Below are positions 9,554 to 63,898 of a stretch of 64,000 bases of DNA, in pieces. The number at the start of each line of letters is the position of its first letter. The first letter of the stretch is position 1. Where the stretch lies: the NCBI GenBank assembly GCA_947561585.1, contig CANNZV010001047.1:62001-126000 (forward strand), written 5' to 3'. The translations under genes were made by a program, and so were the position numbers. The stretch is from Caprella mutica. Its lineage: Eukaryota; Arthropoda; Malacostraca; Amphipoda; Caprellidae. The notes beneath the pieces are model-generated. The model saw only the letters and a program-made list of their open reading frames with translations, did not search any database and had not been told where the DNA came from.

Positions 9554-12500
9554 TCATATTCTGACCTTACCACTGCTTACAAAATGCCCATAGTCTTTCC
9601 TTTTTCTCTTTTGCATAGACATGATTGTCTTACAAACTTCATTAATATCTTCCAAAGCAGGATTGCTAATATCCTTTTCACTGAGAACAGATTTGATATA
9701 TTCCTTCACTTCGGACTCAGAGAAGCTACTGGTGATGGCAGATATGGATTCGTAATCTAAATCATAGGGGTTTATTTCTTTCCTAACCAGAAACTCTATG
9801 AATGTTTTCAACTTCACTATCAAATTAAGGTACTGAACTTTTTCGCCAACGCTGACATCAGGCTTCTCCATGAAATTCTCAATTTTCAACAAAGCATTAT
9901 TTAACATCTTCTGACTTGCTTTCAAGCCGATGCTGCGCCATCCCCATTGAACCTGAAAAGAAAATAATGTTTCATTAGTGGAAACAGAAAATAAAAGGAA
10001 ATTTCTCCCATCAAAAGACTTGAGAATGATCAAAGATGCAGGAACGTCATTCCTGACAATCAACAACTAGTTTAAAATCCTCGGTGAAATAAACTAGTTA
10101 TTGTTGAATAAAGATACTCAATGAGTACACACCTGACTCAGCATCTTTTCCCCTAAGCTTACACCAGTGTTTTTGGTCGTATCTTTATTAACCAAAGATA
10201 TAGATTGCACCCCAACTTTCTTCTTTTTCAGTCTGTTCAGCAATGTTGTCTCAGACAGTGTGAAATTCTGCGACTGGTTATCACTTTTATCTTCTGATGG
10301 TGCGGACTCTTTAAGCAAAGCGAGGTAGGCAGTATCTTCCTCAGAAACAGTTCCTTGTAGATTAACAATCTGCGTCAAGTGTTCCACTCTCTTCTCCCAT
10401 GTCTTCATGAAGCTCTTCTCAAACTGCATATTCCAAAATATGCCCCACATCCTCTCAATGGACTCCATATTCGGTTCTTCACCGTTTTCACGGCTTGTCT
10501 TCATTGCTTGCTGTATGAACGTGCAGTGTTGGTGAGCATAGTTCGGATGTTTCCCAGGGTCTTTACGCAATGTGTCTATCTCTTTCAGGTGAGCATTCTT
10601 CAATGAATCGGCTAGCTGAAGAAGTGAAGCTGAAACATTAGATATATTCACAGGTGGAAGACGTGAAGTTGAAACATTAGCAGATCTATTGGCAGGTGAA
10701 AGACGTGAAGTTGAAACACTAGCAGATCTATTCGCAGGTGAAAGACGTGAAGTTGAAACACTAGTAGATCTATTCACAGGTGAAAGACGTGAAGTTGAAA
10801 AATTAGCAGATCTATTCGCAGGTGAAAGACGTGAAGTTGTAACAATAGCAGATTCATTCACAGGTGGAAGACGTGAAGTTGAAACATTAGCAGATTCATT
10901 CACATGTGGAAGAAGTGAAGCCAAAACACTAACAGAATTATTCACAGGTGGAAGAGTTGAACTCCCAGAAGTATCATCAGATCTGAAATAAATAAGAATG
11001 CCCAGATTAGTAACCTTCAAAGAAGCTAACTAGAGTAATGATACCTTCGTGCTTTTGACAACATAATCAAATCCTACTACAGATATGACTTGCATAGAAA
11101 TCCCATAAGACAAAAGATTGAATTATGTATGACGAGGTTGACCAAAAGCAGGATAATGAACAGAATTTAACCATATATTAATCTAAATTCCAAAGAAACA
11201 AGCATCGTTAAAATCTGATGCAGTTTCAAATCTTCAACAACAGCAGTATATATCTGCCTCTAGAAATGATGTACGAATTAGTGGAAAATACTATATATAA
11301 CTGATTCATCATTAAAAATCAAAATGAATTTAAATACTTTAATGCAGAGTAATCCAAAACTGAGAAACCACAAAACAATTCATTTCATTATAAGTTCTAC
11401 AACATTAGTACTACCAATTAAGGTATTACAATTCCTAGTAGCTACTTTGATATCTAAACAATACGATACCTTGGTTCAAACCTCGACTTAGATCTCCGTT
11501 TTTCATTCTCTTTCATTAGCTTGACCATTTCAATAGCAGCTTCTTGACCAAAATCAGTCCTGGTATCCAAGGAACTTCTTTTCATAGTTTTTTGTTTCAC
11601 CAACATATCTGGTATATAACTAACTTTTATTTCACTAAAAGGGAGATTTTTCTCTTCACTTCCCCATCCTCCTGGAGCTTTTTCCGGTTCAGTATTAGTG
11701 GATAACATGTTACGTAATCCCTTTGAAAGTATTTCACGCAGCTCTGGAACAGCACTATTGCGTTGAGAAGGTACAGCATTCAAAGTGTCATTCGTGTTAC
11801 AGGAGGAGCAACTTGGTTTCTCAATATCAGACCATTCATTAACATTTTCATTATCTGATTTTTGAGATGAGGACAAAACTCCATTACCATTTGTTGTTTC
11901 AAGTTGCTTGGTCTCTGTGAAATGACTGTGCGACCGGGCAACTTTGGAAGTACTGCACGTGTATCTTGAACTCCCAAGGGTTTTATGCTCACTTTCAAAA
12001 TGTTCCTGATCTTCGAAGTTTTTATTACAAAATTCTGTTTCTCTATTTAGTTTTTGTTCAATGTAGAATCTAGATGAACGGTTACCAACCATCGAACTGG
12101 AATCATCATTCTTTGGTTTAGACTCATTTACTATAAGTCTATAATCATCGAACCTAGACTTGGAACTATCAAACCTAGATTGAGAACCATCAAAACTAGA
12201 TTGAGAACCATCAAACCTAGATTGAGAACCATCAAACCTAGATTGAGAACCATCAAACCTAGATTGAGAACCATCAAACCTAGATGGAGAACCATCAAAC
12301 CTAGATGGATAACCATCAAACCTAGATGGATAACCATCAAACCTAGATGAATAACCATCAAACCTAGATAGAGAACCATCACACCTAGATTGTGAACTAT
12401 CTAATTTAGATTGAGAACCTTCAAAACTAGATCGAGAACCTTCAAACCTAGATCGAGAACCTTCAAACCTAGAATTGGAACCATCAAGTTCAGGTTTAGA

Positions 12501-15376
12501 ACTATCAAACCTATATCTGGAATCATCAAAATTTAATTTAGAATCCCTCATCTCATATCTTGGATCACCAAACCTAGATCTAGCATTCTCGAACCTAAAT
12601 CTAGCTCTCTCGAACCTAGATATGGAGTCATCAAAACCAGATCTGGAAACATCAAACCCAGATCTGGAATCATCAAACCTAGATTGTGAGTCATCAAACC
12701 TAGTTTGTGAGTCATTGAAACTAGATTTAATACCATTCAACCGAGATTCGCAATTATCAAAACTAGATTTTGAATCATCAAAACTAGATCTGGGCATATT
12801 AGACCTTGATCTGGAATCAACCAATCCTGAGCAAGAATCATGATCAAATGAAGATCTTTCATCTTCAAATTGAACTGTTCTATCAGTGCAGTCATATTTA
12901 TGGTAAATTTTAGCTCTTTTATTACCAAAATCAACCATTGTATCATGAGAGCAATCTATATCATCATTCCATGTGGATCTTTTAATATTTTGCAAGGATG
13001 TACCGTCACAATCATCCGATACTTTACCACAATGATTTGGTCTTCGATCATCAAAATTCAATTTTTGGCCATTGCTGCTCTGTCTCCTGTCAAAGTTACA
13101 AGATTGACTAGCACTATTTTCTTTCGTTTCAACAGTGTGTGATTTAGGGTCATCACTGAGCTTTAATCTATTTACTGGCTTGACAGGAATATTCTCTGAC
13201 TTTGAAACACTAGTTTCAGAGATTCTATTTGCAGTGATACTAATTTTTGGCTTGTTCTTAGCAATTTGTTTTACATGTTTACGCCAATTGATTGCTTCAT
13301 TAGAAAGAACAGACATATTTCTTACTGTCATCATAATTTTGGCAATAGATGGTGGTGTGGCATCACCCATATTACTTGGTGATATAGGAAGATTGAACTG
13401 CAAAGAACCTAATTTTGATCTTTTATAAAGTGCATTACAAATATCCCAGGTTGGCAATCCTTTGATTCTGTTGTACTGTACAATGTATTTATTAACTTGG
13501 TCACACACGTCCAAAAGGTATTGGTTGATAGTAGTTAAAACTTCATTATCAGGAGCATCTAGTGTATGACGGGAGAGAAAATGAGTTGCTATTTTGGAAT
13601 TGATCATTACTTTGTAGTCAATCGGGCATAGTGTTGTTAAGATTACGTTTGGAGTGTGTGCATAATTTTGCAGTTTTTTACGAACACTAGTCAACCGATC
13701 AAAGAACTCAGTTGATTTGAGGAAAGCTGGGAAGTCAAGCAGCAAAGGATCATGTTGAAGTTCCTCGCATTCACTCATAGAATAACAATGCAGCAACTCA
13801 TGAAAATCAAACCATAGTACAATTATTGCATCTGGCTCAAATAGGATATCCTTGAGGTTTTCCAAAACTTGAGAAGAAGAAACAGATTTCAGGAATATGA
13901 AGTGAGGTTTCTCATGCAATGCCAATTTTGGCCAAAATTGATCCATAAGCAAAAATTTTTGATTGCAGATGAAATAAACAGGGGATTTAGTATCATTATA
14001 TAGAGGAGGATTGTTCTTCTCACTATATGCTTCAATTAATTTGGATATTCTAATACCAATATTAGGAAGCATTTCATAGTTGGGATTTAATCCATCATTC
14101 AGCAATGGAATAGTGATAATGTCATCATTCTCTTCAATTTCTACAGGATTCATGAATAATTCCCAAGGAGGAAGGTGTCTCAATCTAGATAAGTTTTCCA
14201 CCATCATGTTTTTAGAAAGAAGGTAAGTGAACTTGAAAATTTTCACAGCCGATTCATTTAATCTACATTTAGTTTGTTCAGATAAAATTTCTTTCTGCAA
14301 CTCAGCCATTTTAATGAAATCTACAGGAAGAATATCTGTAAAGAGTAGATCATGTTGTTCACCAAAATAATCCTTAAATTCTTTTTGTAGCCTCTTCATT
14401 TCATTGATTGTATCATCAATAGTCAGGTAAATACCCTTCTCATCAATAGTTCTAACAACATCTCTAATACCAACACTGCATATAATCAAGGCTCTACCTT
14501 TTTCCAGTTTAACTTTTGGGATTGATTGAACAAAAAAATCCATTAAAGAGAACAGAGAAAGATTGTCTAGAATATGAAGGAAAGGCTTCTTCATCTTAAC
14601 ATCCTCTTTGCTGGAAAATATGTTGCGCAAACGAGAGTCTCCAACTAGGAAGATTGATTTGTAATTCTTCCGAAACAATGGACTTCCGCTTTCCTGAAAT
14701 AATGAAAGATCAATTAATATTTGTGATACTACTAATATAGATAGCTCTCTGAAATAGAAAAAAATACAAACATATTATTTCAAGAAAGGCACCAATATGT
14801 AGCTAATTTAACAAAACTTGAAGGAACAGTAGAAAATTAAATTCATATATATCAACATAATTGCCCAAATCTGAAAAAGTGGTTCACCTTATACAAAACT
14901 TTATGATCCGTTGAACTTTGTATGAGATTCACAAGGAATATGCGGTGTTGCTGTAAATCAAATTCATCCAGTCCAAATGTATGGGCGCATTTCTTATCAT
15001 GAATTTTCAGAGCATGGTTTTTCAAATTCTCAATGAATTCAGAATATTTCCCATTAACTACAGGCTTCTTACATATTTCAATGGGTTCACCAAATGTTTC
15101 CTTAGTATAGAAATTTCCCTCTTCACTTAATAGATCTTTACTGTTAACCTTTTCTACAGACACATCTTTCTGAAATGCTTCAGAGCAAAATTGTAAACTG
15201 GCTGAATTGCCATTTAACTCATCAACATATGCTTCCTCCTTAAAATACTTCCAGTTGAATTTGAATGCTGAATCAAGATTGGGAGTAATGTATGGTAATG
15301 AAAATTTCTTCTTCTGAGCTTGTTGACCATGATCAGGAAATGGCTGGTTGTGAGTTTCACATTGATAGTTACTCAT
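9554..15376 (-). CDS. Unidentified 1653-aa protein, two SGNH-like domains and repeats
   Basis: Four exons join in frame on the minus strand: 15376-14888, 14693-11470, 10982-10133 and 9952-9554. All introns are GT-AG (AAG|GTGAAC, AAG|GTATCG and CAG|GTGTGT donors; TTTCAG acceptors) and phases match (0, 2, 0). The long exon starts SIFLVGDSRLRN (GDS at about residues 181-183), then CSVGIRDV and DILPVDF, an order recalling SGNH/GDSL hydrolase blocks. Residues about 400-615 look like a diverged second copy (VLWFDFHEL, TLCPIDYK, then RIKGLPTWDIC beside RLRHLPPWELF of the first) without the GDS. Residues about 795-1010 are 7-aa FDGSQSR-type repeats and about 1245-1350 are 14-aa RLSPANRSANVSTS repeats, both likely disordered. 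The final 130 residues are predicted helical. I do not recognise the family. The ATG at 15376 is the first in frame. Hydrolase activity is inference. Confidence 0.75.
10640..10965 (-). repeat. 42-bp coding minisatellite (14-aa repeat)
   Basis: About eight imperfect 42-bp units inside exon 3 of the gene at 9554-15376 encode RLSPANRSANVSTS variants. The unit is a multiple of three and the frame is kept throughout, so copy-number change would alter length without breaking the protein. Confidence 0.85.
12145..12800 (-). repeat. 21-bp coding minisatellite (7-aa FDGSQSR repeat)
   Basis: About thirty 21-bp units lie in exon 2, most regular at 12170-12440 and degenerate toward 12800. They encode a Ser/Asp/Arg/Phe-rich heptad-length repeat. 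The reverse strand and other frames are also open across the array only because of the 21-bp period. Confidence 0.85.
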
Positions 15377-17421: not shown

Positions 17422-20400
17422 GGGTAATGTCTCAATGATCGTTCTGTAACGGGTTCCCATACATTAATAAAGATATTAATTGTCAGTAGCGCCTCACCAT
17501 CTGTTCGTACATGTCAAGAGTTAGCCAAGACATTATTACCCCGAAATATCATCATTTAAAGGCAAGTTCTGTGTATATTGACAATTAAATACTATAGAAA
17601 TAAGTTCCGTCATTACCGTACGCTTAAATTGTCACAATTAAGTTATGATGTGACGAGAAATTGTGATTTACTATTGTGTTATTTTTCGAGTATCAAGATG
17701 GCGGGAACGTCAGAGTGAATAAAAATGTTTACAGTTTTGTGTGTGATAAGTGTATCTCTTAAGTTATCTCCAAATTTCCTTTATATTAGCGTAAATTATC
17801 ATTTGTTAGTCAGTTCGTACATAGGGTGTACGGTCCTGTGATACATGTCACATGTTGCGTACACCAGATGTACAAACTAGTGACACAGTATTATATGATC
17901 GTACATTAGTAATAGTTTATAATTTACGTTGCAGATGGCTCCTAAACGAAAGTGCTGTGAATATTCTGAAGAAGATCTTTTGAATGCAGTGGCAGGAGAG
18001 ACATTCCTAACTTGGTAAAAAATATTCTTGACAGAGCAGAGACTGAGGACAATTATGCACTCCTTTCAGGTGCCAAGTTCATTAATAATAAACCAAGTAG
18101 GACCTGAGTCTACAGATTCCTCGCTAGGCATCCAGAGATCAGCGTCAGAACTCCTGAAAACTTTGGTTTTCAACGCTCATACCTCACGGAGGACATCATT
18201 AGGTCATGGTTCTCCAATTTGGAGAAGTTTTTCCAGAGTGAGCATGGTTTGGTGGCCAAGGATTTTTTCTCTGAACAAATGCTGTGCGAATTTTCAACTT
18301 GGATGAGAGCGGTTTCCCTCTCCAAGGAACGAATGGCAAACTGAAAATAATAGCTGAGAAGGGAACGAAAAGCCCATTTGTACTGAACTCGGACACTAAA
18401 AAGCAAATTACAGTGCTGGCATGTGTTTCTGCAGGAGGTACATATTCCAAACCTCTCGTTATTTATCCCAGTCTGAACACCCCGAAGTACAATTTTTCTG
18501 GCGTCAATGAAGAGGACTACAACGTCAGATTTACTCCCAATGGATAGATCTCACCGGACTCGTTCTTCACATGGCTATCGAGTCTATGGTATTTATCCAT
18601 TGAGAGAAAAGTATCTTTCCCAGTCATCTTCTTCATTGACGGACACACTTCTCGCATCAAATTAGCAGTGTCAGAATTCTGTAGACATGAATATCATCCT
18701 GTACTGCTTCCCACCACATGCAAGCCATATTCTCCAGCCCCTGGACGTCATGGTATTCGGACCACTGAAGAAGCTGTGGAACACAGCCGTTGATGATTTC
18801 AAAAGAAAAAACCGAATAGCTGTGTCGAAACACAGTTTTTTCCAAACTTTAGATGCATGTGCTCAGAAGAAGCACAGCATTGCTGGTTTCAGAGCGACTG
18901 GTTTGGTGCTATTCAACCCGAATGCCATTGACTACAGCAAAGTAGTTAAGTCGAAAGCAGCTCCTCCTCCCTCGTATTCGAAGTCGCACCTAAATATGGA
19001 TCAAAGGCTGGGGATTACGATGTCTTTGAATTCCATTAAAGCTATTTTGTCAACATCTCAAATTGAACTGTACAAGAGGCACATTGTAGAGCATTATGAC
19101 TTGGTAGACAACACAGATGGGAATAAACTGTGGAGGATCTATAAAACTATCAAAATGATGCATATCAACAAGAGACATGACTCAGATCAATCCTCCTCTG
19201 ATGATAATCAAGATGACATGAATGAAGAAGATGAATCTGACGTTGAAGCTCCCATGATTCCCAATGATGAGGGAGAAGCTCCTATGATTCATAATATGAT
19301 CACGGTGAAGCTCCTGTAATTCATAATGATGTTGATAGTGAAGCTCCCACAATTCCCAATGATGATGCTGGTGAACGTCCCATGGTTCCCAATGATAAAG
19401 CTCCCGTGATTCCCAATGATGATGACAGCGAAGCTCCTGTGATTCCTGATGAAGAAAGAATTGTAAGTACTCCAAAAAAAGGGTCCAGGGCTGAGTTTGG
19501 AAACACTAGTACTATTTCAATTATTGATCATGCGTCGTTACCAGCTGCAGAAGACATCGACGAGCCCTCAACCTCTTTAAACAGTTTAGACAATTCCCCC
19601 TTTAAGAAGTATCTAGTAATCTCCAATACTACCATAATTCCATCGAGAAAGGAGCCCAAAAGAAAACCCAAAACACCGACAGCACTTGGTGCTAAAGAAT
19701 GCGTTGAACATTTTAGGAAAGGGAAGAAGAGCTGAAGGTGAAAGAAAGGAGGAAACAAGAAAGAGAAGAAAACATAAAATCAAAGAAAAACCACAACAAA
19801 AAGAGAACACAAAAAAAACGAACAAGATGTGCTGGTAACACGGATGAAGATGGAGAAGAAGACGATGAAGATGACGAAGAAATATCTGAAGTAGTTTATG
19901 CAGGATCATCCGATGAATTAGAAGAGTTTCCGAACAGAGGAATGAATGTGGAGCATGCGAGGGGAATGAAGAATGGGAAGTTGGTGAAAACTGAACAGTG
20001 GATAGGGTGTTGCAAATGCCCTCACAAGAAATGTTTGCCCATAGAAATCGAACAAATGATTGATGCTGAACTCAGGAAACTTCAATACATTTGCATTACT
20101 TGCCGGAAGGAAACCTCAAAATAAAAAAAATAACCCATCTCTCTTAAAGGATCTTTTTTATGAGGAGTTATTTTAAAGAATAATTTAGTTAGATATTTAT
20201 GTTGCACTAATGATTATAGGAGATAAATGTGTTAATTGTGAATAACAAACTTCAAATAAATTTTGTTTCTACACTTTCATAAAGATAATTATTATTTTCC
20301 CCTGTCGTGATTATCGTGTAACTCTTGCTATGCATCATAGAAGGAAATTTCTGAAAAGAACTCTTTCGTTGTTTCCCAGACATTCGATTTTGAGTCATAG

Positions 20401-26532: not shown

Positions 26533-29500
26533 CTACAGTTTAAAAAATTTTCCAGACATTAATACATAATTAATAACTAATTTATGTATCTTCATTTGAA
26601 TTTTTTCATCAAACTCTCCCCCAAGGAGAATATTAGTCATGTTTAATGTCACTCCAAGTTGTCCAAGATTATTTTGTAGTTCAGTTCTAATATCACTGAA
26701 TTCTACACATTGCATCAGGAAATGCTCCACAGTGTCACACTGCCCACAATAGTCACATCTATCAGACTCGCTCATCTCAAATCGATGCAAGTGACTATTA
26801 ACACCCACATGACCAATGCGAAGCCTTGCAGAGACTGTTTCCTGAAGCCTTGATTTCATTCCAAGCCATAGTCTGTATTTTGGTCTTTCTTGGTGACTAC
26901 TCAGGAATCTACCTTTTTGAGTAGACAGAACCTTTTCTTTCCAAAGTCTAACCCAATAGTTGAAGAAATGAGCTTTAATCTGTATCACTATCTCGTCATA
27001 GCAAAGGGAACTCAGAGTAGAAAATAAGTTGGAATGACCCTGGTTTGCTGCTCTATCAGCTGCCTCATTGCCAATTATTCCAATATGGCCTCGCACCCAC
27101 TGCAACTCAACTCTCTGTCTTAGGTTTAACAGTTGATCCTGGATCTTATGAGCAATATGTCTATAAGATGGGTTTGTAGAGTTTCTAACAATAAATAGAG
27201 CTGATTTTGAATCAGTTAAAATGACAAAATGTCTATGGAAGAACTGAGGATTATTTTCAATAAATTCTAGAGCTTTGTGCAATCCAAACAGCTCCGAACC
27301 AAGAACAGTGTGTTGTGGGATCAATTTAAATGATGTAGCCACATTCAATGAGGGAACATATATCCCTGCTGATGTTGAACCATCCTCCAGTTTAGAGCCG
27401 TCTGTATATATCTCTATATAATCTTCAAACTTTTGATTCTTAGCTTCAGAGAACATGGCTAATTTAGTTCTGTTGTCAGAGACATTCTGTTCTCCATCAA
27501 ACATATCCATATGTATTATAGAACACAAGTCAATTTCTGGTGAAACAGGTGATAGGTATGATGTTGGTACTCTCTTTGTAATAGGGAGACCAATGTCAGT
27601 GAAGATAGACTTTGCTCGTACTGTAAAACAGTTATTGTTACCAAGAGGAATGATGCCCATTTCTTGAGAGATTTCTGCTTTATCACTATTTACTGGAGAA
27701 AGCATCATTTTAGAGAACCATTTGATGAATAAAAGTTGAAATCTCAGATCAATCGGCATGATGTAGGATTCAACTTCTAATGACATGATTGGTGAGGTTT
27801 TCCTTGCCCCCAAGATTGTTCTGAGGGCACCATTCTGGATTGTATTTAGCTTTTGGATTTGGACTTTTGTTAATTTATCTAAAATAATGCTACCGTATTC
27901 AAGCTTACTTCTGATAAAACTGATGTAAACTCTCCTCAGCAAGTTCCTTGATGCTCCCCATTTGTTTGAAGATATGGACCTAAGGATGCATAATCTTCTT
28001 GAGCAGTCATCTTTAAGAGTTTTGATGTGGGCATTAAAAGAAAGTCTTGGTGCATCCAAGATGACTCCAAGGACTCTCTGGTTTTCCTTTCTACTTATAT
28101 TCTGGTTCAAAATTGAAAGATTAACCTGTGGTATAGATCTCTTATTGGTGAATATCTGAAATGCACACTTATTAGGGTTAATTTTAAATTTCCACATATC
28201 CAACCATGCAGTTAAAGTATCCAAATAAAGTTGCATATTTGTAGAGGCTTCTTCAGCAGTTTTTGCACTGCAAAATAAAGTTATGTCATCCGCATATGAA
28301 AGCACCTTTACATCATCCGACTTGGGAATATCACTTAACATGGCATTAAAAAGTATTGGAGATAGGACTGCACCTTGAGGTAGCCCTCTAGTCAAGACCC
28401 TTTTTTCTGAAAGTTCTTTGCCCACTCTAACCCTAACAGATCTATTAGTGAGATAATCTGTCAGCCATCTAAGTAGAAAAACATTGGTGCCAATTTCCTT
28501 CAATTTGTATAACAGGCCTTCATGCCACACACAATCATATGCACTATCTAAATCAAGATAAACTATAATGCATATATTTTTCTTCTCTCTATTCAGATTT
28601 ATCAAGTGCTTAAGGATGGCTAAAGTGTCAACAGTGCTACGGCATTTTCTGAAGCCACTTTGTGTAGGAGGAAATGCCAACTGGGTTTCGAAAAAGTGTT
28701 CTATCCTTTGTTTGATCACCCTTTCCATGAGTTTTCCCATGCATGACAACATGGATATGGGCCTGTAGGAAGAAATAACTGAAGGGTCCTTTCCTGGTTT
28801 TGGGATGGAACAGATAACTCCATCCTTCCAATCCTGAGGTACTGATCCACTAAAGAGACTTGAATTAAATAGATAAGTAATTTCACTTAAAATGTTAGGA
28901 GGGACACGTTTCAGGAAAGAATTACATAGTAGATCTGGTCCAGGAGCAGTGTTTTTCAATTTTATCAAACACTTCAACACTTCTGATTCAGATATTGGAT
29001 TGTAGTCAATATTTACAATATCAAAGTTTGAAGTCCTTGCTTCTGCATCATGTTCAGTTTGATATCTTGAAAAATGGCCAACCAACATATTAGCCTTATC
29101 AACATTAGATGCAAATACATTTCCTATCGGCATGTTCAATTTTGGAGCAGTCCCATTGATAGCTTTGATGGTCTTCCAGACCTTTGCAGATGGAGTGTTA
29201 CTCGTGAGAGTGGTGGCAAATTCCTTCCAGCAGTTCCTTTTCTTTTTCCTAGTAATATATTTAACAATAGCCTGTAGTTTTTTTAAATTTAACAAATTCT
29301 GTAATGTGGGGTGTTGTACTAATTGATATTTTGCATTGTTACGATTTTGAACAGCCTCCCTACACTCTGTATCCCACCATGGAGTATATCTTTTTATTTG
29401 TTTTTTGCCTTTAGATTTTGGAATATATGTATTTGATACTTCTATTATTCTATCTGTCAGATTCTTATTATGGGTATTGGGGTCAAGTGGGAGATAAGAT

Positions 29501-30294
29501 TGATGTTCATTTTTATTACCAAGTTCCTTAACCCAACCTTTCCAATCAGCTTTTCTGAGTTGCCATCTAACATTGGTTTCTAGATCACTTTTTGGGACAG
29601 AAACTCCTATATCAATTTCAATAGGGAAATGGTCACTTCCCAAGTCCTGTCCCCTAGTGAAGTTAGCATTATTTGATAGGCTCTGAGCAGTGATGCATAA
29701 ATCTAGACACGAGGTTCTGCCAGTAAAATTATTTATATAAGTTGGTGAATCAATATCATTCAAAATGCTTACATTGAGATTTTCCAAAATGAATTCTATA
29801 TTTTTTCCTGTGCTATTACTCCTACCCTGAATATCCCATACTGGAGAGTGTGCATTAAAATCCCCTATCATGATGCTGCGATTTCCTAAAATATCTAGAT
29901 AGTATCTGAATTCAGGGACAATAATGGTTTTATGAGGATTATATAAATTTGCTAATCTAATTTTCCCTAGATTTGATGCTATTTCTATTATCTGTAGTTC
30001 CAGACCACCATTTTGAAATGGAACAAAATTAATCTCTTGAAAATTGATGTCATTTCTAATTAATAGGGCTAAGCCCCCTTTTTCACCAACACGATGTTTC
30101 CATATTGGAGTATATCCTACAAATTTTGGCTCCTTGTCCTTTATCATTGTTTCGCAGAGGCACATAATATCTGGTTTTTTAGTGTATAGATAGATTTTAA
30201 TTTCAGAGAGTTTATTATTAAGAGAGTTACAGTTGAGTTGGAAAATTGATAAGGATTTTTCTAAATGTTCTGACCTCTTTAGTTTGTTGAGCAT
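26533..30294 (-). CDS. Retrotransposon ORF2: endonuclease-RT-RNase H, 1253 aa
   Basis: This polyprotein nicks target DNA and copies the element's RNA onto it. The APE-type endonuclease is at the N terminus (LNCNSLNNKL, CET near residue 48, GDFNAHSPVWD near 142, SDHFPI near 218). The reverse transcriptase has SSYRPISML, QSGFRKCRS, DLDSAYD, GLPQGAVLSP (near 634) and SYADD (near 667) with both aspartates. RNase H follows (YTDGS near 961, ELFGLHKALE, TDSKSA, RGHIGIIGNEAADRAA near 1066). The tail has CDYCGQCDTVEHFLMQC, the zinc motif of the group. No stop or frameshift interrupts it, so it could be functional. It starts 27 bp after ORF1, so translation probably depends on re-initiation or the shared RNA. 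Confidence 0.93.
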   Translation of the reverse strand: MLNKLKRSEHLEKSLSIFQLNCNSLNNKLSEIKIYLYTKKPDIMCLCETMIKDKEPKFVGYTPIWKHRVGEKGGLALLIRNDINFQEINFVPFQNGGLELQIIEIASNLGKIRLANLYNPHKTIIVPEFRYYLDILGNRSIMIGDFNAHSPVWDIQGRSNSTGKNIEFILENLNVSILNDIDSPTYINNFTGRTSCLDLCITAQSLSNNANFTRGQDLGSDHFPIEIDIGVSVPKSDLETNVRWQLRKADWKGWVKELGNKNEHQSYLPLDPNTHNKNLTDRIIEVSNTYIPKSKGKKQIKRYTPWWDTECREAVQNRNNAKYQLVQHPTLQNLLNLKKLQAIVKYITRKKKRNCWKEFATTLTSNTPSAKVWKTIKAINGTAPKLNMPIGNVFASNVDKANMLVGHFSRYQTEHDAEARTSNFDIVNIDYNPISESEVLKCLIKLKNTAPGPDLLCNSFLKRVPPNILSEITYLFNSSLFSGSVPQDWKDGVICSIPKPGKDPSVISSYRPISMLSCMGKLMERVIKQRIEHFFETQLAFPPTQSGFRKCRSTVDTLAILKHLINLNREKKNICIIVYLDLDSAYDCVWHEGLLYKLKEIGTNVFLLRWLTDYLTNRSVRVRVGKELSEKRVLTRGLPQGAVLSPILFNAMLSDIPKSDDVKVLSYADDITLFCSAKTAEEASTNMQLYLDTLTAWLDMWKFKINPNKCAFQIFTNKRSIPQVNLSILNQNISRKENQRVLGVILDAPRLSFNAHIKTLKDDCSRRLCILRSISSNKWGASRNLLRRVYISFIRSKLEYGSIILDKLTKVQIQKLNTIQNGALRTILGARKTSPIMSLEVESYIMPIDLRFQLLFIKWFSKMMLSPVNSDKAEISQEMGIIPLGNNNCFTVRAKSIFTDIGLPITKRVPTSYLSPVSPEIDLCSIIHMDMFDGEQNVSDNRTKLAMFSEAKNQKFEDYIEIYTDGSKLEDGSTSAGIYVPSLNVATSFKLIPQHTVLGSELFGLHKALEFIENNPQFFHRHFVILTDSKSALFIVRNSTNPSYRHIAHKIQDQLLNLRQRVELQWVRGHIGIIGNEAADRAANQGHSNLFSTLSSLCYDEIVIQIKAHFFNYWVRLWKEKVLSTQKGRFLSSHQERPKYRLWLGMKSRLQETVSARLRIGHVGVNSHLHRFEMSESDRCDYCGQCDTVEHFLMQCVEFSDIRTELQNNLGQLGVTLNMTNILLGGEFDEKIQMKIHKLVINYVLMSGKFFKL

Positions 30295-30321
30295 TTGAGA
30301 ATCTGTTATTGGAAGAGGAAT

Positions 30322-31869
30322 TTAGGATTTTTTATTTTTGCAGGCACGTTCTATAGAGGATCTACCCGATTCCCTTTCGCTCTTCTTTCTTTTTTTCTTA
30401 TTCTTTTTTTTGGTGGCTCTACTGCTTCTAATTTCCACCTCTGATGATAATACACCCAGTTCTGACTCAGATTGAGTACTCAAATCTTCATTATTAGTTG
30501 ATGTATGGTCCAATTTTTTCAATTGTCTGGCAATGGCTATGTCAAGTTTCTCTGATGTTTTAGGTTCTAGTTGGAAGGACTTGAACAACTCTTTCAGGCA
30601 CTCAGAAATTCCAACCAAGAATTCTGAAATGCATTCCTTCACTATCTTTTTGCACTCACTGCGCAAAGTTGAATCTATTGATGGTTTAGGTGATTTCCCT
30701 TTAACTATGTTACTGTAAGTCTGTTCTTGATTCACTGATGACAAAGGAATTAGGTTTTCTCTATTATTATTAGAGTTCACTATGTTTTGTACAACGGGTA
30801 ATGAATTTCCTTTGTATTTACTGTCAATTATTTTTTTCGCATTGAAAAATGAATTTCCTTTTTTGACTAGGTTTGAAATTTCTAGTGATTTTTTGTTGTA
30901 TATACATTCTTTAGAGCTTGCAACATGTTTGCCATTACAATTAGCACACTTCGGTGACCCTGAGTTTGGACAATTATTCTTTTGATGTTCCCCTCCGCAG
31001 ACAAGGCATCTCATTTTTGCAGTACAGCCACCAGACATATGTCCAAACCGTTGGCATTGATAACATCTTAGGGGTGGCACATTAAACTCCTTCACAACAT
31101 AGGAAACATAGCCCAGTTTTACTTTGGGAGGCAAAACCTGTCCCTCAAAATCTATTTTTATGGCTAGAGAGTCTTCTCTAACTCCATTGCTAAATTTTGG
31201 CAACCTGCTCAGCCTCAGTATTGTGCATGATGATTTAATCATCTGCTTCAGTTCATTCATGTCAGCTTCTTGACTGATCGGACCAATGACTCCACTACAG
31301 TGAACTCCTAGATGCTCTTCCGTGGGTTTATATCCCTTAACTAAGAAAGTAGAAATCTTTTTAATGTCCAAAAGTTTTCTAAAATTATCATCAGTAGGGT
31401 TTGCCAATTGGACTGCCAAGATGTTACGTCTCCTGTTAATTCTAATGTCCTCAATATCCCTTTCAGGAAGCAATTCTGAGAAACACTTGGCAATACCAAT
31501 GGCATCTCTAGAAAGAAGATGCCCCCCTGAACCCTCATTAGGCATAATAACTTGTTTAAATAGAACCGTATTCTTATTATTTGTGTTCATAATGGTGTTA
31601 TTAATTGGAAAACTCTTATTTCCATCTAAAGTCCCTGGTAAGGGAAATGTTTCAGGAATTTCCTGAATATTTAGAATATTGCTGGGACCAGCTACATTTT
31701 TACTAGGAGTACTCTGGGATTGATCGAATGTTTGAGTCTCCGGTAGAGGGAAAGTTTCTGGAATGCTAACATTCCAATCTACTGCCTCTGCTTCTTCTTG
31801 AGCAGATGGCAGATGTAGGTCACTTTCAGACATATTTAACAAGTCTAGAGCATATCTATCATTCATCAA
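30322..31869 (-). CDS. Retrotransposon ORF1: gag-like nucleic-acid binding protein, 515 aa
   Basis: The protein packages the element's RNA into particles with ORF2. Residues about 269-312 hold three zinc-knuckle motifs in a row (CYQCQRFGHMSGGC, CLVCGGEHQKNNC, CANCNGKHVASSKEC), the usual arrangement in insect gag-like ORF1 proteins. A gag-like region precedes it, and the C terminus is strongly basic (KKKNKKKRKKS), suited to RNA or nuclear binding. The frame is unbroken from the ATG at 31869. It lies just upstream of ORF2 on the same strand. Confidence 0.9.
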   Translation of the reverse strand: MMNDRYALDLLNMSESDLHLPSAQEEAEAVDWNVSIPETFPLPETQTFDQSQSTPSKNVAGPSNILNIQEIPETFPLPGTLDGNKSFPINNTIMNTNNKNTVLFKQVIMPNEGSGGHLLSRDAIGIAKCFSELLPERDIEDIRINRRRNILAVQLANPTDDNFRKLLDIKKISTFLVKGYKPTEEHLGVHCSGVIGPISQEADMNELKQMIKSSCTILRLSRLPKFSNGVREDSLAIKIDFEGQVLPPKVKLGYVSYVVKEFNVPPLRCYQCQRFGHMSGGCTAKMRCLVCGGEHQKNNCPNSGSPKCANCNGKHVASSKECIYNKKSLEISNLVKKGNSFFNAKKIIDSKYKGNSLPVVQNIVNSNNNRENLIPLSSVNQEQTYSNIVKGKSPKPSIDSTLRSECKKIVKECISEFLVGISECLKELFKSFQLEPKTSEKLDIAIARQLKKLDHTSTNNEDLSTQSESELGVLSSEVEIRSSRATKKKNKKKRKKSERESGRSSIERACKNKKS

Positions 31870-32187
31870 GTTGTTTAATTTACCTAAAGAGTGGTGATCT
31901 ATAGTTATAAACTATATGTACCTACCCAAGGGCAAGGCTAAATTTTAATCAATAAAAAAGAAAAGAAAAAATTATGGCTTTTACCTATAGTCTAGGTAGG
32001 CCCGCCTAAAGTCTTCAATAAATATAAGAATATATACAGCAAGGTTAGGTATATATAAAAAATATATACCCTACTATCTAGGTATGTGAATTACCACTAG
32101 ACTCCCCCCCGACACAGAGTCGGTAGGGCTATGGTAATCTATACAGATGCACACTAGATACTTATTAAGGTACCTAAGCCATAAGTA

Positions 32188-43271: not shown

Positions 43272-46200
43272 TCAAGTCCTTATTTGGAATTTACCAGCCT
43301 TGGTAGCGTATTTGACACCTTTGAAAGGCTTGTACTTCTCACCATAAATATCAAGTCTGTTGACTTTCAGTCCCGATACAGCAAGTTGCAATATTGTGAA
43401 GTGAACCTGAATAAAAAAATAACAATTAGTCACTCGTTAAATTGATTTCAAACTAGAACATAAATGGGAGAAAAAATTAACATAGCTACATTGATGGTAG
43501 GGATGGTGTGAATGTTACTTACATTGATGGTAGGGATGGTGTGAATGTTACTTACATTGATGGTAGGGTTGGTGTGAATGTTACTTACATTGATGGTAGG
43601 GATGGTGTGAATGTTACTTACATTGATGGTAGGGATGGTGTGAATGTTACTTACATTGATGGTAGGGTTGGTGTGAATGTTACTTACATTGATGGTAGGG
43701 ATGGTGTGAATGTTACTTACATTGATGGTAGGGTTGGTGTGAATGTTACTTACATTGATGGTAGGGATGGTGTGAATGTTACTTACATTGATGGTAGGGT
43801 TGGTGTGAATGTTACTTACATTGATGGTAGGGTTGGTGTGAATATTACTTGCATTGATGGTAGGGATGGTGTGAATGTTACTTACATTGATGGTAGGGTT
43901 GGTGTGAATGTTACTTACATTGATGGTAGGGTTGGGTGAATGTTACTTACATTGATGGTAGGGTTGGTGTGAATGTTACTTACATTGATGGTAGCGTTGG
44001 TGTGAATGTTACTTACATTGATGGTAGGGTTGGTGTGAATGTTACTTACATTGATGGTAGGGTTGGGTGAATGTTACTTACATTGATGGTACGGTTGGTG
44101 TGAATGTTACTTACATTGATGGTAGGGTTGGTGTGAATGTTACTTACATTGATGGTAGGGTTGGTGTGAATGTTACTTACATTGATGGTACGGTTGGTGT
44201 GAATGTTACTTACATTGATGGTAGGGTTGGTGTGAATGTTACTTACATTGATGGTAGGGTTGGTGTGAATGTTACTTACATTGATGGTAGGGTTACTCTC
44301 TGGTAAAGGGGCTCCACTTTGCAAACTTATCTGTAAATATAAACTAGTTATATTTCTGTTGCATCAAATATATAAGTAATTTTCAATAATTTCATTTTTA
44401 AAGCTCAACAAAAGAAAATTAAAGAAAAGCTCAAACCAAACAAAAGTTATGTTACTGGATAAAATCATTCAATGTGAAATATATTTAACAGTTTTAACCG
44501 TGAAGAATTAGGAATTCTATCAAGAACAGCAATTTTTCAAAAGAACCAAAGACCTATTAGAGTTACTCACCCCGCCCCTAATGTTAGGCAGCCTGGATGG
44601 CTCTATTTTTCCTACATCCCAGTGCAGGACTCTCGTCACAGGGTCAAAGGAATGCTTGCCCTGCGTCACAGTGAGATTGCAGCTCAGAACACTCTTAGGC
44701 ATCGGCACTTCAATCTTAACATTCTCAACCTTTTGAGCAAAGATAGAAGGGTGAGGATAATAAATATTTTCATCGAACCTGAAATATGAGTGCTTAAACA
44801 GGGTAATATTGAAGTCTGGAACCGTACATCACCAAAGAAATCACTCCAGAGCTTTCTATATAATGTATCACACAGTACTATCTAAATAAACCAAAAAAAT
44901 GCATACCCAGTGACGTCATACTTTTTTTATTAAGATACGCGGTTGAAGTTTTAATAAATGTACGAATGGTGGAATAAACTCTTGTTGTTTATAACTAACC
45001 GTTCTTCCCATAGTCTGCTTAGGTCCCACAGTGATGTCCAACCTCCCTCCACTCGTCTCCTTGAAGGAAATGTTGTGTTTAATATACACAGGAATTGCCA
45101 CAACAGACTGGGAGGAGATGTGGTACGATAACAACCGGAAGTTACCGTCAGGAGGGATAAATGAGAGAACCTTCTCATCCTGAAAATGACATATCACAAA
45201 GATTTACATATATTCACTAACTAGTCTGTTAAGAAGTCTACATTTTTGGACACTTCTGTTGATCATAAAAACAACTAGACTAGAAATCTTGAAAATGCAC
45301 TCTGATATTTAGGAGAGAATTTTCAGTATTATATTGTTAATTCATGATGAGAATATTTGCTCACCTCCCATCGTCTGAGTCGAATGCAAGGATGGAAAGA
45401 GACGTCATCAAAGAGTCTAGGGTTGGTGAAGGTAAGAGTGAGATCCGGCATGCCACTCAGACGAGCAAAACAATCAATCTGTGGTGAGAAAGGAGGAAGC
45501 ATGAAGTCTGCAACTATAAGATTACCTAGTTTAGCCATAAAAGTACCGAAATATATTTTAAGTTAGCGAATGCTATTTGCTTACATATCCCTGTATCTCC
45601 GAGGTGACTGTACTGCCACTCTTATCAATGATGACATCCACCTCCTCTGTGAGGTCCAGGAAAATGTCATTAGCAGCGTACTTGACATCAGATCTCCTCC
45701 AAGGGACGTTACTAAGTTGACTGCTAGGCAGGGTGACGCTCATGCTAAAGGGAGGGACTAATTAACTACCCTTGCATCAAAACAATCCACCAATAAAAGT
45801 TTTCAATATTTACAGCTCAATGGTATTTTAGTAGCCAATATTAATCTTCACTCCTTCAATAGCTAGTTGAGAGACTTATGGAACAAAAAACAAGTATAAA
45901 CAAAGTAAATTAACGGGTGTCCAGTAGACACAAACTTTATGTTTACATATATTTATTCATTTATGCTTTCAATGTTCTACTCAAACAGATAATATAGTAA
46001 ACTAGTGTACTTTCCCATTTAAAATAACAGGTCATCATCAATACCAATTTATTACCCGTTATTAGGTTACTTTTGATGAATTCAATAGAAATTAAAAAAA
46101 TTAAAATCATTACATTTTCTGCATAGTCTAATTTATTTTGTAGATAAAATAAATTAAAAATTTAATAAAAACAGGGGAATTTAAATATCAAGAAAATATA

Positions 46201-47963
46201 TTCCCGTTCGTATCATAGTTACATTCTTCATGTTTAATACCCGTCATGTAAAAGCGGACACCAAATAAATAAATAAACACACTACGGGTATTATTAGTAT
46301 AGATAGATACAGAGCATTACATATTAACTATGTAAATTATTAGTTTCAACTAACTTCAAACTAGCTGTACCAATGTCTAGAGATCTGTATTACTTTAAAC
46401 TTTCAGCTTAAAATCAAATATTAGATCTTTTACTACATGGCTAAAAATAACTAAATAGCAAACTAATTGTATGTTGAATCTCACCCATCATCTCTGAACA
46501 TATAAACAGAAAAAAATTAATATATTAGCTATAATAAAAATCAAGAACAAAAAATGCTTACTTCAGTTCCTAAGTTTGAAATTTTATAAATAACATACAG
46601 CAAAATTAGTTAAACAGTTGAGCAAAGCTTTAAAATTAATCAACTATACACTTACTTTGTTTTACCAGTAACTGTGTTTGCAATTGTCCTAAGAATGTTG
46701 GGAGGTTTGATCAATTCTTTCAGCACATTGCTCTCAGTTGCTAGAGGAAATCCATTATCCAATAGTTCATCCAACAGCTAAAAATTAGAAATAGGAAGTA
46801 GCTATGTCAAAATTATTTCAGAAAAAGCTAACAAATTAAAGATGTGCTGTAGACAATATATGTTGAAACTAGCTATTAATTGATTTCCAATAGTTTTTGA
46901 ATGAAGAATTAATAGCTGAAAGTTGTATTCAAGACTAACCTCATACACCACAACATAATGCTCCTTGATGGTAGACTCATTGCAGTCTCCAAAGTAGTCA
47001 GCAAAAATGTCAACAGCTCGATGGAGGAACTCAATTACAAATAGAGGAGGTACTGAAATATAGGTTATTGATCTGGATATATGTTCTTTATCTTATCTCT
47101 AATTTCCTTAATATAATAGAAAGGATATGTTTATTGGGATAAATATATATAGCTATATCATCTATAATCTCAAATAAAATCAGTATATATAGTAAGATAG
47201 TTAAATTAGCATGAGTTAAGATAACCATACTCAGTCTACTTTAAATTATTACTGTCAATTAACAACACGGAAGTGCTAGCTATATCTAAAATAGAAAGGT
47301 AATTCTAATTTCAGTTTCAAATGTTGGAGGATATTTTAGAATTGAACACACCTTCAGTCATGCAGACTGCAACGTAGAAGCAATTGTTGCGCAGTACAGA
47401 GATGAGGTAATGGTGTGGAGTTGTGATGACAGGTGGGATATCTTCACTTGAATTGGCTTTCCTCTGAGCATCAAAGAAGTAATCACAAACACATCTTGGA
47501 ATGACACTCTTCCAATGCTTTTCCATGAATACATCACTAATATAAGAGATATGATATTCATGAGATATTAGCTATCAAAATAATATTTAGAAATTGAAAT
47601 ATGAACTCAGTATAGGATAAGCAATTTAGCTATTTCAAACTAATTTAACTAAACACATAATAACTTTCTATTTCCCCATTAGAATTTCCAATCCAGTCTG
47701 CAGAATATGCGAGATATTTGGGATATTCTCTCCGAACAATTTTGAATTAATTCCTATATTTACATTAATTTTGCTACGAACACTTCTGAATTAATTCCTA
47801 TATTTACATTAATTTTGCTACGAACAGATTAAGAGATCTCTACGAACACTTAACCAGTTTCTGCAGACTGGTTTCCAATAAATAATATTATCGACAATGT
47901 GTCATTTCTTCATACAGTATAGACTTACCCAGCAGTATTTATTATGAATAAACTGTGAATCAT
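43272..47963 (-). CDS. AP3M: AP-3 adaptor complex subunit mu
   Basis: This is the medium subunit of the AP-3 adaptor, which sorts cargo with tyrosine-based signals to lysosomes and related organelles (Drosophila carmine, vertebrate AP3M1/2). Ten minus-strand exons join in frame to 417 aa, the family's usual length (about 418): 47963-47929, 47536-47352, 47052-46940, 46777-46656, 45744-45585, 45478-45365, 45179-45000, 44729-44571, 44330-44280 and 43406-43272. The longin-like N part has MIHSLFIINTAGDVFMEKHW and STPHHYLISV-type sequence (here TTPHHYLISV); the mu-homology domain has KSGSTVTSEIQG, LSGMPDLTLTF, DDVSFHPCIRLRRWE and FIPPDGNFRLLSY; the end is GLKVNRLDIYGEKYKPFKG. Exon 9 (QSGAPLPESNPTIN) ends at a splice donor copied many times by an adjacent minisatellite. 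The acceptor of exon 8 (AAAAG) is the weakest boundary. Confidence 0.95.
43490..44295 (-). repeat. 33-bp minisatellite repeating the AP3M exon 9 splice donor
   Basis: Twenty-five tandem units (33-bp period, two units with a 1-bp deletion near 43930 and 44063) begin at the end of AP3M exon 9 and extend into intron 9. On the gene's strand each unit is AACCCTACCATCAAT (the last 15 nt of the exon) then GTAAGTAACATTCACACC (intron). Hence almost every unit recreates the junction AAT|GTAAGT. The unit starting at 43853 has GCAAGT instead, and the outermost (43490) has decayed. The intronic 18 nt contain no stop in the exon's frame. Confidence 0.95.
47693..47871. mobile_element. Short hAT-like MITE in AP3M intron 1 (179 bp)
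   Basis: Inverted ends CCAGTCTGCAGAA and its complement are flanked by the 8-bp duplication TTTCCAAT (47685-47692 and 47872-47879). The interior contains two tandem 47-bp copies (about 47735-47827). The last bases of the window (63986-64000) read CCCAGTCTGCAGA and may begin another copy. Confidence 0.8.
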
Positions 47964-62987: not shown

Positions 62988-63160
62988 CTGCAATTATCAA
63001 TCAGTAGTAAATAAATTATGATTAAGATATACCAATATCTTAATATCTGGAAGTCAAGAGATATTTAACAGATTAATCTAATTTTAATTTAAAAAAAATT
63101 AAATATATCTAATAGCTAAATATTTTCTAATTCTTGATAATGATATTAAACAAAATATGA

Positions 63161-63898
63161 CAAAATTCACAATTTTATGATCTTACAAATTTTTGAGGAT
63201 CAATTACCAATCCCTATTTGTCAAAGCTCAAAACTTAATGAAAAGATGAAAACTTCTATTTCATTAAAAAAAAATATAGATATATGCTATTGAAATGAAA
63301 TTAAAATAAAGCAGCTTTAGAAAGAAATTGAGGTGAAAATTACAAGATAATCTATGATAGCTATTTGATAGATAATTTATCATAATCAATTATTAATGAG
63401 AACATTTAATTGAAGCAAAAGTAATTATTAGAGTATATCATTACAAATTGAAAAGAAATTAGAATAAATGAAATATACCCAATAGTTTCAAAATTTCTAA
63501 TAAGCATTATTATAAACTATGATGGCTTCACAAAATTCACAATTTTATGATCTTACAAATTTTTGAGGATCAATTACCAATCCCTATTTGTCAAAGCTCA
63601 AAACTTAATGAAAAGATGAAAACTTCTATTTCATTAAAAAAAAATATAGATATATGCTATTGAAATGAAATTAAAATAAAGCAGCTTTAGAAAGAAATTG
63701 AGGTGAAAATTACAAGATAATCTATGATAGCTATTTGATAGATAATTTATCATAATCAATTATTAATGAGAACATTTAATTGAAGCAAAAGTAATTATTA
63801 GAGTATATCATTACAAATTGAAAAGAAATTAGAATAAATGAAATATACCCAATAGTTTCAAAATTTCTAATAAGCATTATTATAAACTATGATGGCTT
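63161..63898. repeat. Direct tandem duplication of 370 bp
   Basis: The block starting CAAAATTCACAATTTTATGA at 63161 is repeated from 63531, apparently without differences over about 365 bp. Contents are AT-rich intron or upstream sequence of the MYCBP-like gene. It is either a very recent duplication or an assembly error. Confidence 0.85.

Follow-up and report, generated by a model that had tools for sequence, protein, structure and literature searches.

A 33-bp minisatellite repeats the donor boundary of AP3M exon 9 in Caprella mutica, probably as a mainly neutral 'mirage' with slight in-frame leakage

Tandem repeats lying across exon-intron boundaries were termed 'mirages' in the amphioxus Adh3 gene and were described again in amphioxus globins, where the number of units differs between haplotypes and regular splicing was reported to be undisturbed (PMC3087553). 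In human ABCA7, the exon 18 donor is the starting point of a 25-bp VNTR of intron 18 (23.7 units in the reference), and the next unit acts as a donor at about 2%, independently of array length, if this is how the source's '14 and 2%, respectively' for two frame-shifting isoforms is to be read (PMC5954066). The same source reported that PTC-bearing transcripts increased with cycloheximide, that longer alleles associate with exon 19 skipping and reduced expression, that alternative transcripts together exceeded the canonical transcript in 90% of BA10 brain samples, and that expression in cell lines was 33% lower with the largest diploid VNTR combination than with the smallest (PMC5954066). The exon 19 skipping and lower expression mean that boundary arrays are not always harmless. 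In human IFI6 (6-16/G1P3), two downstream units of a minisatellite serve as donors and three mRNAs are formed (PMC4526556, citing Turri et al., 1995), while boundary minisatellites in human segmental-duplication genes were reported to alter gene structure, with alternative transcripts (PMC2812944). Multiple U1 occupancy was found to change donor choice and not splicing efficiency unless the sites are sterically close, a spacing of 33 nt not being addressed in the relevant passages of that source (PMC5389562). The boundary-spanning minisatellites found in the literature are a handful (amphioxus genes, IFI6, ABCA7, and human segmental duplications), and a literature search on duplicated proximal donors found nothing.

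The window, i.e., the whole 64,000-nucleotide stretch of a Caprella mutica contig that was analyzed, contains a gene for AP3M whose ten exon ends were placed by hand using splice signals and homology. The parts of the gene model that concern the present analysis are:

43272..47963, minus strand: AP3M coding region, ten coding exons (exon table and identity to AP-3 complex subunit mu-1)
44280..44330, minus strand: AP3M exon 9 under canonical splicing, 51 nt, 17 codons, phase 0/0 (homology and splice signals)
43272..43406, minus strand: AP3M exon 10, the last coding exon, VHFTILQLAVSGLKVNRLDIYGEKYKPFKGVKYATKAGKFQIRT* (alignment and exon table)

The joined coding sequence gives 417 amino acids without a stop. 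Its mu-homology domain is orthologous, the C-terminal strands included, and matches the best solved AP-3 mu-1 chain at E = 1.1e-127 (query residues 4-265). Across the exon 9/10 junction, alignment with the solved AP-3 mu-1 chains, which are mammalian, proceeded without a gap (NPTIN/VHF vs. NPNLN/IQF, the slash marking the junction). None of the 15 aligned AP3M relatives, chosen out of 120 listed, has an insertion at this position, and the best of 1094 database relatives was a protein of the amphipod Trinorchestia longiramus, with 82% identity. Based on these alignments and the splice signals, the gene model and the exon 9 boundary can be regarded as secure, the gapless junction and the uninterrupted 417-residue frame bearing out the exon 9 end given in a preliminary description of this DNA. 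The same description called the gene essential, which is doubtful because flies and mice can live without normal AP-3, their mutants being viable. Skipping of exon 9 would be in frame and leave 400 residues.

On the minus strand, exon 9 ends AACCCTACCATCAAT/GTAAGT (44280/44279) and its last 15 bases (44294-44280) constitute the first exonic part of a tandem array (TRF period 33, 97% matches, score 1518). The repeat unit consists of 15 exonic bases (AACCCTACCATCAAT) followed by 18 intronic bases (GTAAGTAACATTCACACC), with the donor GTAAGT in 23 of the 24 full units and GCAAGT in the remaining one (unit 14), before a terminal partial unit that carries GTAGCT. Individual elements of the array are:

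43487..44294, minus strand: 33-bp minisatellite, 24.5 copies (TRF and unit table)
44274..44279, minus strand: donor 1, GTAAGT, giving the conserved 417-residue protein (unit and exon tables)
44050..44081, minus strand: unit 7, 32 bp with a 1-bp deletion, where the in-frame ladder stops (unit table)
43919..43950, minus strand: unit 11, 32 bp, with a 1-bp deletion identical to the one in unit 7 (unit table)
43847..43852, minus strand: donor of unit 14, GCAAGT, with weaker predicted U1 pairing (unit table)
43484..43489, minus strand: terminal degenerate donor GTAGCT, with an intron of 83 nt to exon 10 (exon table)

Spacing between the 23 GTAAGT sites was 32-33 nt (66 across the GC unit). From the frequency of GTAAGT in the window and a 200-kb genome sample, this array included, about 0.3 such sites would be expected on one strand over 808 bases. 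Most of the preliminary description thus stood: the approximately 24-fold donor multiplication, the division of each 33-bp unit into exonic and intronic bases, the 11-codon step that adds 11 residues per unit, and the single GC donor (unit 14, 43852) were all recovered. The in-frame range that it gave proved exact (last exonic base 44280 to 44082, donors 1-7), and the frame is lost, as stated, after a 1-bp deletion that lies in unit 7 (44081-44050); the second 1-bp deletion, in unit 11, was absent from it. The unit types follow one another as AABAABCADACAEFAEAEAEEAEE, a pattern that resembles turnover in which several units are copied at once, e.g., in the alternating AE run of units 15-20. 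Repeated unit types and the high level of matches characterize the interior of the array, the 3' edge is degenerate, and the first unit on the exon side is identical to the consensus.

A search of the 903-Mb assembly (7200 contigs) with the 21-mer AACCCTACCATCAATGTAAGT, allowing at most one mismatch, returned 23 matches and all 23 were in this array. The array is unique in the assembly and a shared satellite family was rejected on the same result. When 265 amino acids of AP3M were compared with the assembly, the seven matches comprised five exons of the locus and two weak ones (31-40% identity) on another contig; a retrocopy recording isoforms was absent from these seven and that candidate was also rejected.

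The choice of donor would determine the product, and the alternatives to donor 1 fall on either side of the unit 7 deletion:

44076..44246, minus strand: donors 2-7 (G at 44246, 44213, 44180, 44147, 44114, and 44081), in frame, adding 11 to 66 residues (exon table)
43484..44049, minus strand: donors 8-25, out of frame (exon table)

Proteins of 417, 428, 439, 450, 461, 472, and 483 residues are predicted for donors 1-7, with no stop within this in-frame ladder. The 1-bp deletion of unit 7 places donor 8 out of frame, giving a frameshifted C-terminus with a stop in exon 10, and because the deletion in unit 11 is identical, the frame is still lost downstream. For donors 9-25, a stop occurs inside the array, between 29 and 556 nt ahead of the last junction, and in donors 10-25 it lies more than 55 nt before that junction, such that their transcripts are predicted NMD targets under the 55-nt rule. 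In a simple and rough duplex model, predicted U1 pairing was equal for all 23 GTAAGT donors (-5.1 kcal/mol), and the donor sequence itself therefore gives the first no advantage; the corresponding values were -1.1 for the GC unit, -1.0 for the terminal GTAGCT, and -4.3 to -10.1 for the other donors of the gene. The fold of 44150-44330 was no better than that of shuffled sequences (z = 1.13; 174 of 200 fold at least as well) and RNA structure at the donors was rejected on this test. Each unit of the first seven donors ends NPTIN (NRTIN in two), so that the residues immediately before VHFTI would be nearly constant in every in-frame isoform and the extra residues would fall ahead of them. In a search with the 66-residue insert both flanks still aligned to AP-3 mu-1 chains, and the stretch ahead of NPTIN is one residue longer in AP-1 mu. 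The insertion place is probably a loop before a strand of the mu-homology domain.

Variation among units was used to look for constraint. The donor hexamer was changed in 1 of 144 cells compared to 13 of 648 in the rest of the unit (p = 0.48), these cells not being independent as variants spread by copying, and selection on the donors was rejected as the hexamer was not detectably better kept. Little difference was observed between units 1-7 (3 of 231 cells changed) and units 8-24 (11 of 561), and of the 10 changes in 360 exonic cells (4 in 432 for the intronic columns) seven represent one variant common to seven units. Judged by its unit sequences, the array shows no sign of function.

Tandem arrays with a period of at least 10 and a score of at least 100 were counted in 20 stretches of 10 kb spaced about evenly across contigs C20 to C1000. 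A few of these stretches may be bacterial, as the assembly has many long stop-free COX1 frames. They covered 33,780 of 200,000 bases (16.9%; n = 66) and included 13 arrays of at least 20 copies, 23 with a period divisible by three (near the 1-in-3 expectation), and six that reached 800 bp or more with a match level of 95% or better. Arrays of the size and purity seen in AP3M are therefore ordinary in this genome, and some are to be expected on exon ends. GTRAGT was present in the unit of 8 of the 66 arrays vs. 2 of 66 for the reversed control; this excess is small and runs opposite to the genome-wide pattern count, where three GTAAGT at array-like spacing matched 68,621 times, a single array often giving many matches, and the reversed control matched more often (84,812). 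By the same measure, arrays make up 7.3% of the window and the AP3M array is the only one of 14 there to contain GTRAGT. The functional role proposed for the donor ladder in the preliminary description is accordingly weakened by the lack of detectable hexamer constraint, by the commonness of arrays, and by the fact that the kind is already known.

Further repeats and mobile elements were noted in the window. Minisatellites with periods divisible by three lie at 12146-12789 (21 bp x 30.7) inside a 1106-residue minus-strand frame and at 10619-10955 (42 bp x 8.1) inside a 303-residue minus-strand frame, both frames being without a Pfam match, and their location in long frames suggests that coding sequence may also hold arrays. 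Two 370-bp tandem copies with 100% matches (63160-63898) either arose by duplication very recently or were doubled in the assembly. A non-LTR-type retrotransposon occupies 26533-31911 on the minus strand, with a 1262-residue frame containing endonuclease, reverse transcriptase, and RNase H domains that is preceded by a 529-residue frame in which zinc-knuckle-like motifs were read by eye. On the plus strand, a frame at 18666-19422 has a partial match to the DDE_1 transposase and its end is overlapped by a 33-bp array (19238-19422). Elsewhere in the assembly, the 31.6-kb mitochondrial contig (C5068) has two COX1 copies 15.4 kb apart and looks like a doubled circular assembly, while 16 near full-length, stop-free COX1 matches outside it suggest bacterial contigs from a symbiont or contaminant. 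The mitochondrial COX1 is 96% identical to an entry under the name Cyamus ovalis, representative of a 20-sequence cluster, and 91% at most to the other 119 hits listed; by this marker the animal would most likely be a member of the Cyamidae, the amphipod family of the whale lice.

The reading that best accounts for these observations, with a probability of roughly three in four (0.76), is that the array is mainly a neutral mirage in which donor 1 dominates and slight in-frame leakage occurs. The array would have begun when a segment spanning the end of exon 9 and the start of intron 9 was duplicated in tandem, and would then have expanded to 24 units through slippage or unequal exchange. By analogy, the spliceosome would act mainly at donor 1 and yield normal AP3M, while a few per cent of transcripts may pass via donor 2 or 3 and gain 11 or 22 residues, which would be placed just ahead of the last mu-homology domain strands and lengthen the preceding stretch. 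Rare mRNAs from distal donors would be removed by NMD and the array would not be maintained for function, being presumably tolerated because it is intronic, its first donor is usable, and the nearby donors are in frame. That the donor 1 product is exactly the conserved protein is a point in favor of this reading, and the equal predicted strength of all 23 GTAAGT donors would count against the dominance of donor 1. The small GTRAGT excess among the sampled arrays and the more frequent changes in the exonic than in the intronic columns of the unit also weigh on the opposing side. When equal donors are duplicated in vitro, the copy closest to the 3' splice site is often preferred; in the AP3M array this donor would be out of frame. 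The extent of leakage may also exceed that of ABCA7, where the 2% refers to a frame-shifting and NMD-sensitive unit, as an in-frame unit could accumulate more.

A functional ladder of length isoforms, in which donors 1-7 are all appreciably used, the mix of 417 to 483 residues is set by repeat number, and cargo sorting is altered, would fit the seven equal in-frame donors without a stop and has a precedent in the two downstream donor units of IFI6 (PMC4526556). It is nevertheless unlikely, as the 15 aligned relatives have no insertion, the donors lack excess conservation, and the amphioxus mirages reportedly leave regular splicing intact (PMC3087553). Still more doubtful is a damping of expression by which donors near the acceptor generate NMD targets and longer arrays reduce AP3M output. 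The premature stops of donors 10-25 would suit such a role, as would the introns of donors 20-25 (83-248 nt, with 106-911 nt for the other AP3M introns) and the lower ABCA7 expression with the largest VNTR combination (PMC5954066), but the length-dependent splicing change reported for ABCA7 is skipping of the next exon, which in AP3M is the last coding exon. A similarly improbable proposal treats the array as a heritable, rapidly mutable dial, where the count of in-frame donors depends on how many units there are and on where the frame-breaking deletion lies and individuals would differ in their isoforms and in productive AP3M.

It is hardly credible that the array is a U1 snRNP trap or a buffer against donor mutation kept by selection. 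Its 23 identical GTAAGT sites are what such a device would offer, yet no constraint was detected on the hexamer, multiple U1 occupancy was reported to leave efficiency unaffected except at sites that are sterically close (PMC5389562), and units beyond 7 could not replace a lost donor as they are out of frame. An assembly or base-call artefact that affects the count of units or the pair of 1-bp deletions has to be weighed as well, given that there is a single assembly, that tandem arrays are prone to error, and that the deletions decide the frame. This too is very improbable: the array is internal to a 187-kb contig and has unit-specific variants, and the identity of the deletions in units 7 and 11 is as expected if one real variant had been copied.

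The value of the AP3M array lies in its being an unusually clean case, in which a gene of wide conservation carries 23 identical donors at a constant in-frame step that is cut off after donor 7. This makes it a natural test of how the spliceosome chooses among equal donors. The richness of this genome in minisatellites also leads to the expectation of more boundary arrays, and further cases would permit a genome-wide test of when splice-site arrays are tolerated and of whether they contribute to intron gain. Should the dial be true, many exon ends may carry one, the six large and clean arrays per 200 kb extrapolating to tens of thousands of comparable arrays.

The IFI6 minisatellite has a 12-bp in-frame unit. 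By their frame, donors 1-7 of the AP3M array could act as in-frame donors of the IFI6 kind; the two cases differ in gene and phylum, and unit use is a reported observation for IFI6 and a possibility for AP3M. As in the amphioxus mirages, the tandem units of the AP3M array extend over the border of an exon and its intron, and many of them combine bases from both sides with splice signals (PMC3087553). In amphioxus, the Adh3 units measure 10-72 bp and are homogenized internally with the cluster edges excluded, BflGb6 has 150-160 bp units at the acceptor boundary of exon 2 (six and three in two haplotypes), and BflGb9 has a 157-bp duplicate of the exon 2 3' boundary (PMC3087553). In contrast to the globin cases, the AP3M array lies at a donor boundary, has 24 units with an in-frame 11-codon step, and occurs in a crustacean. 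ABCA7 resembles it in having about 24 units that run from a coding-exon donor, but that VNTR begins at the GT itself without exonic bases and its 25-bp unit shifts the frame (PMC5954066). The AP3M array begins 15 bases inside the exon with a step in frame for seven donors, and it is not of the ABCA7 type. The human segmental-duplication cases are recent paralogues averaging about four units of 30 bp, with no donor ladder in the passages that describe them (PMC2812944). The kind itself is thus known, and what the AP3M array adds to it is a crustacean host, an in-frame 11-codon step cut off after donor 7, and a setting in a minisatellite-rich genome.
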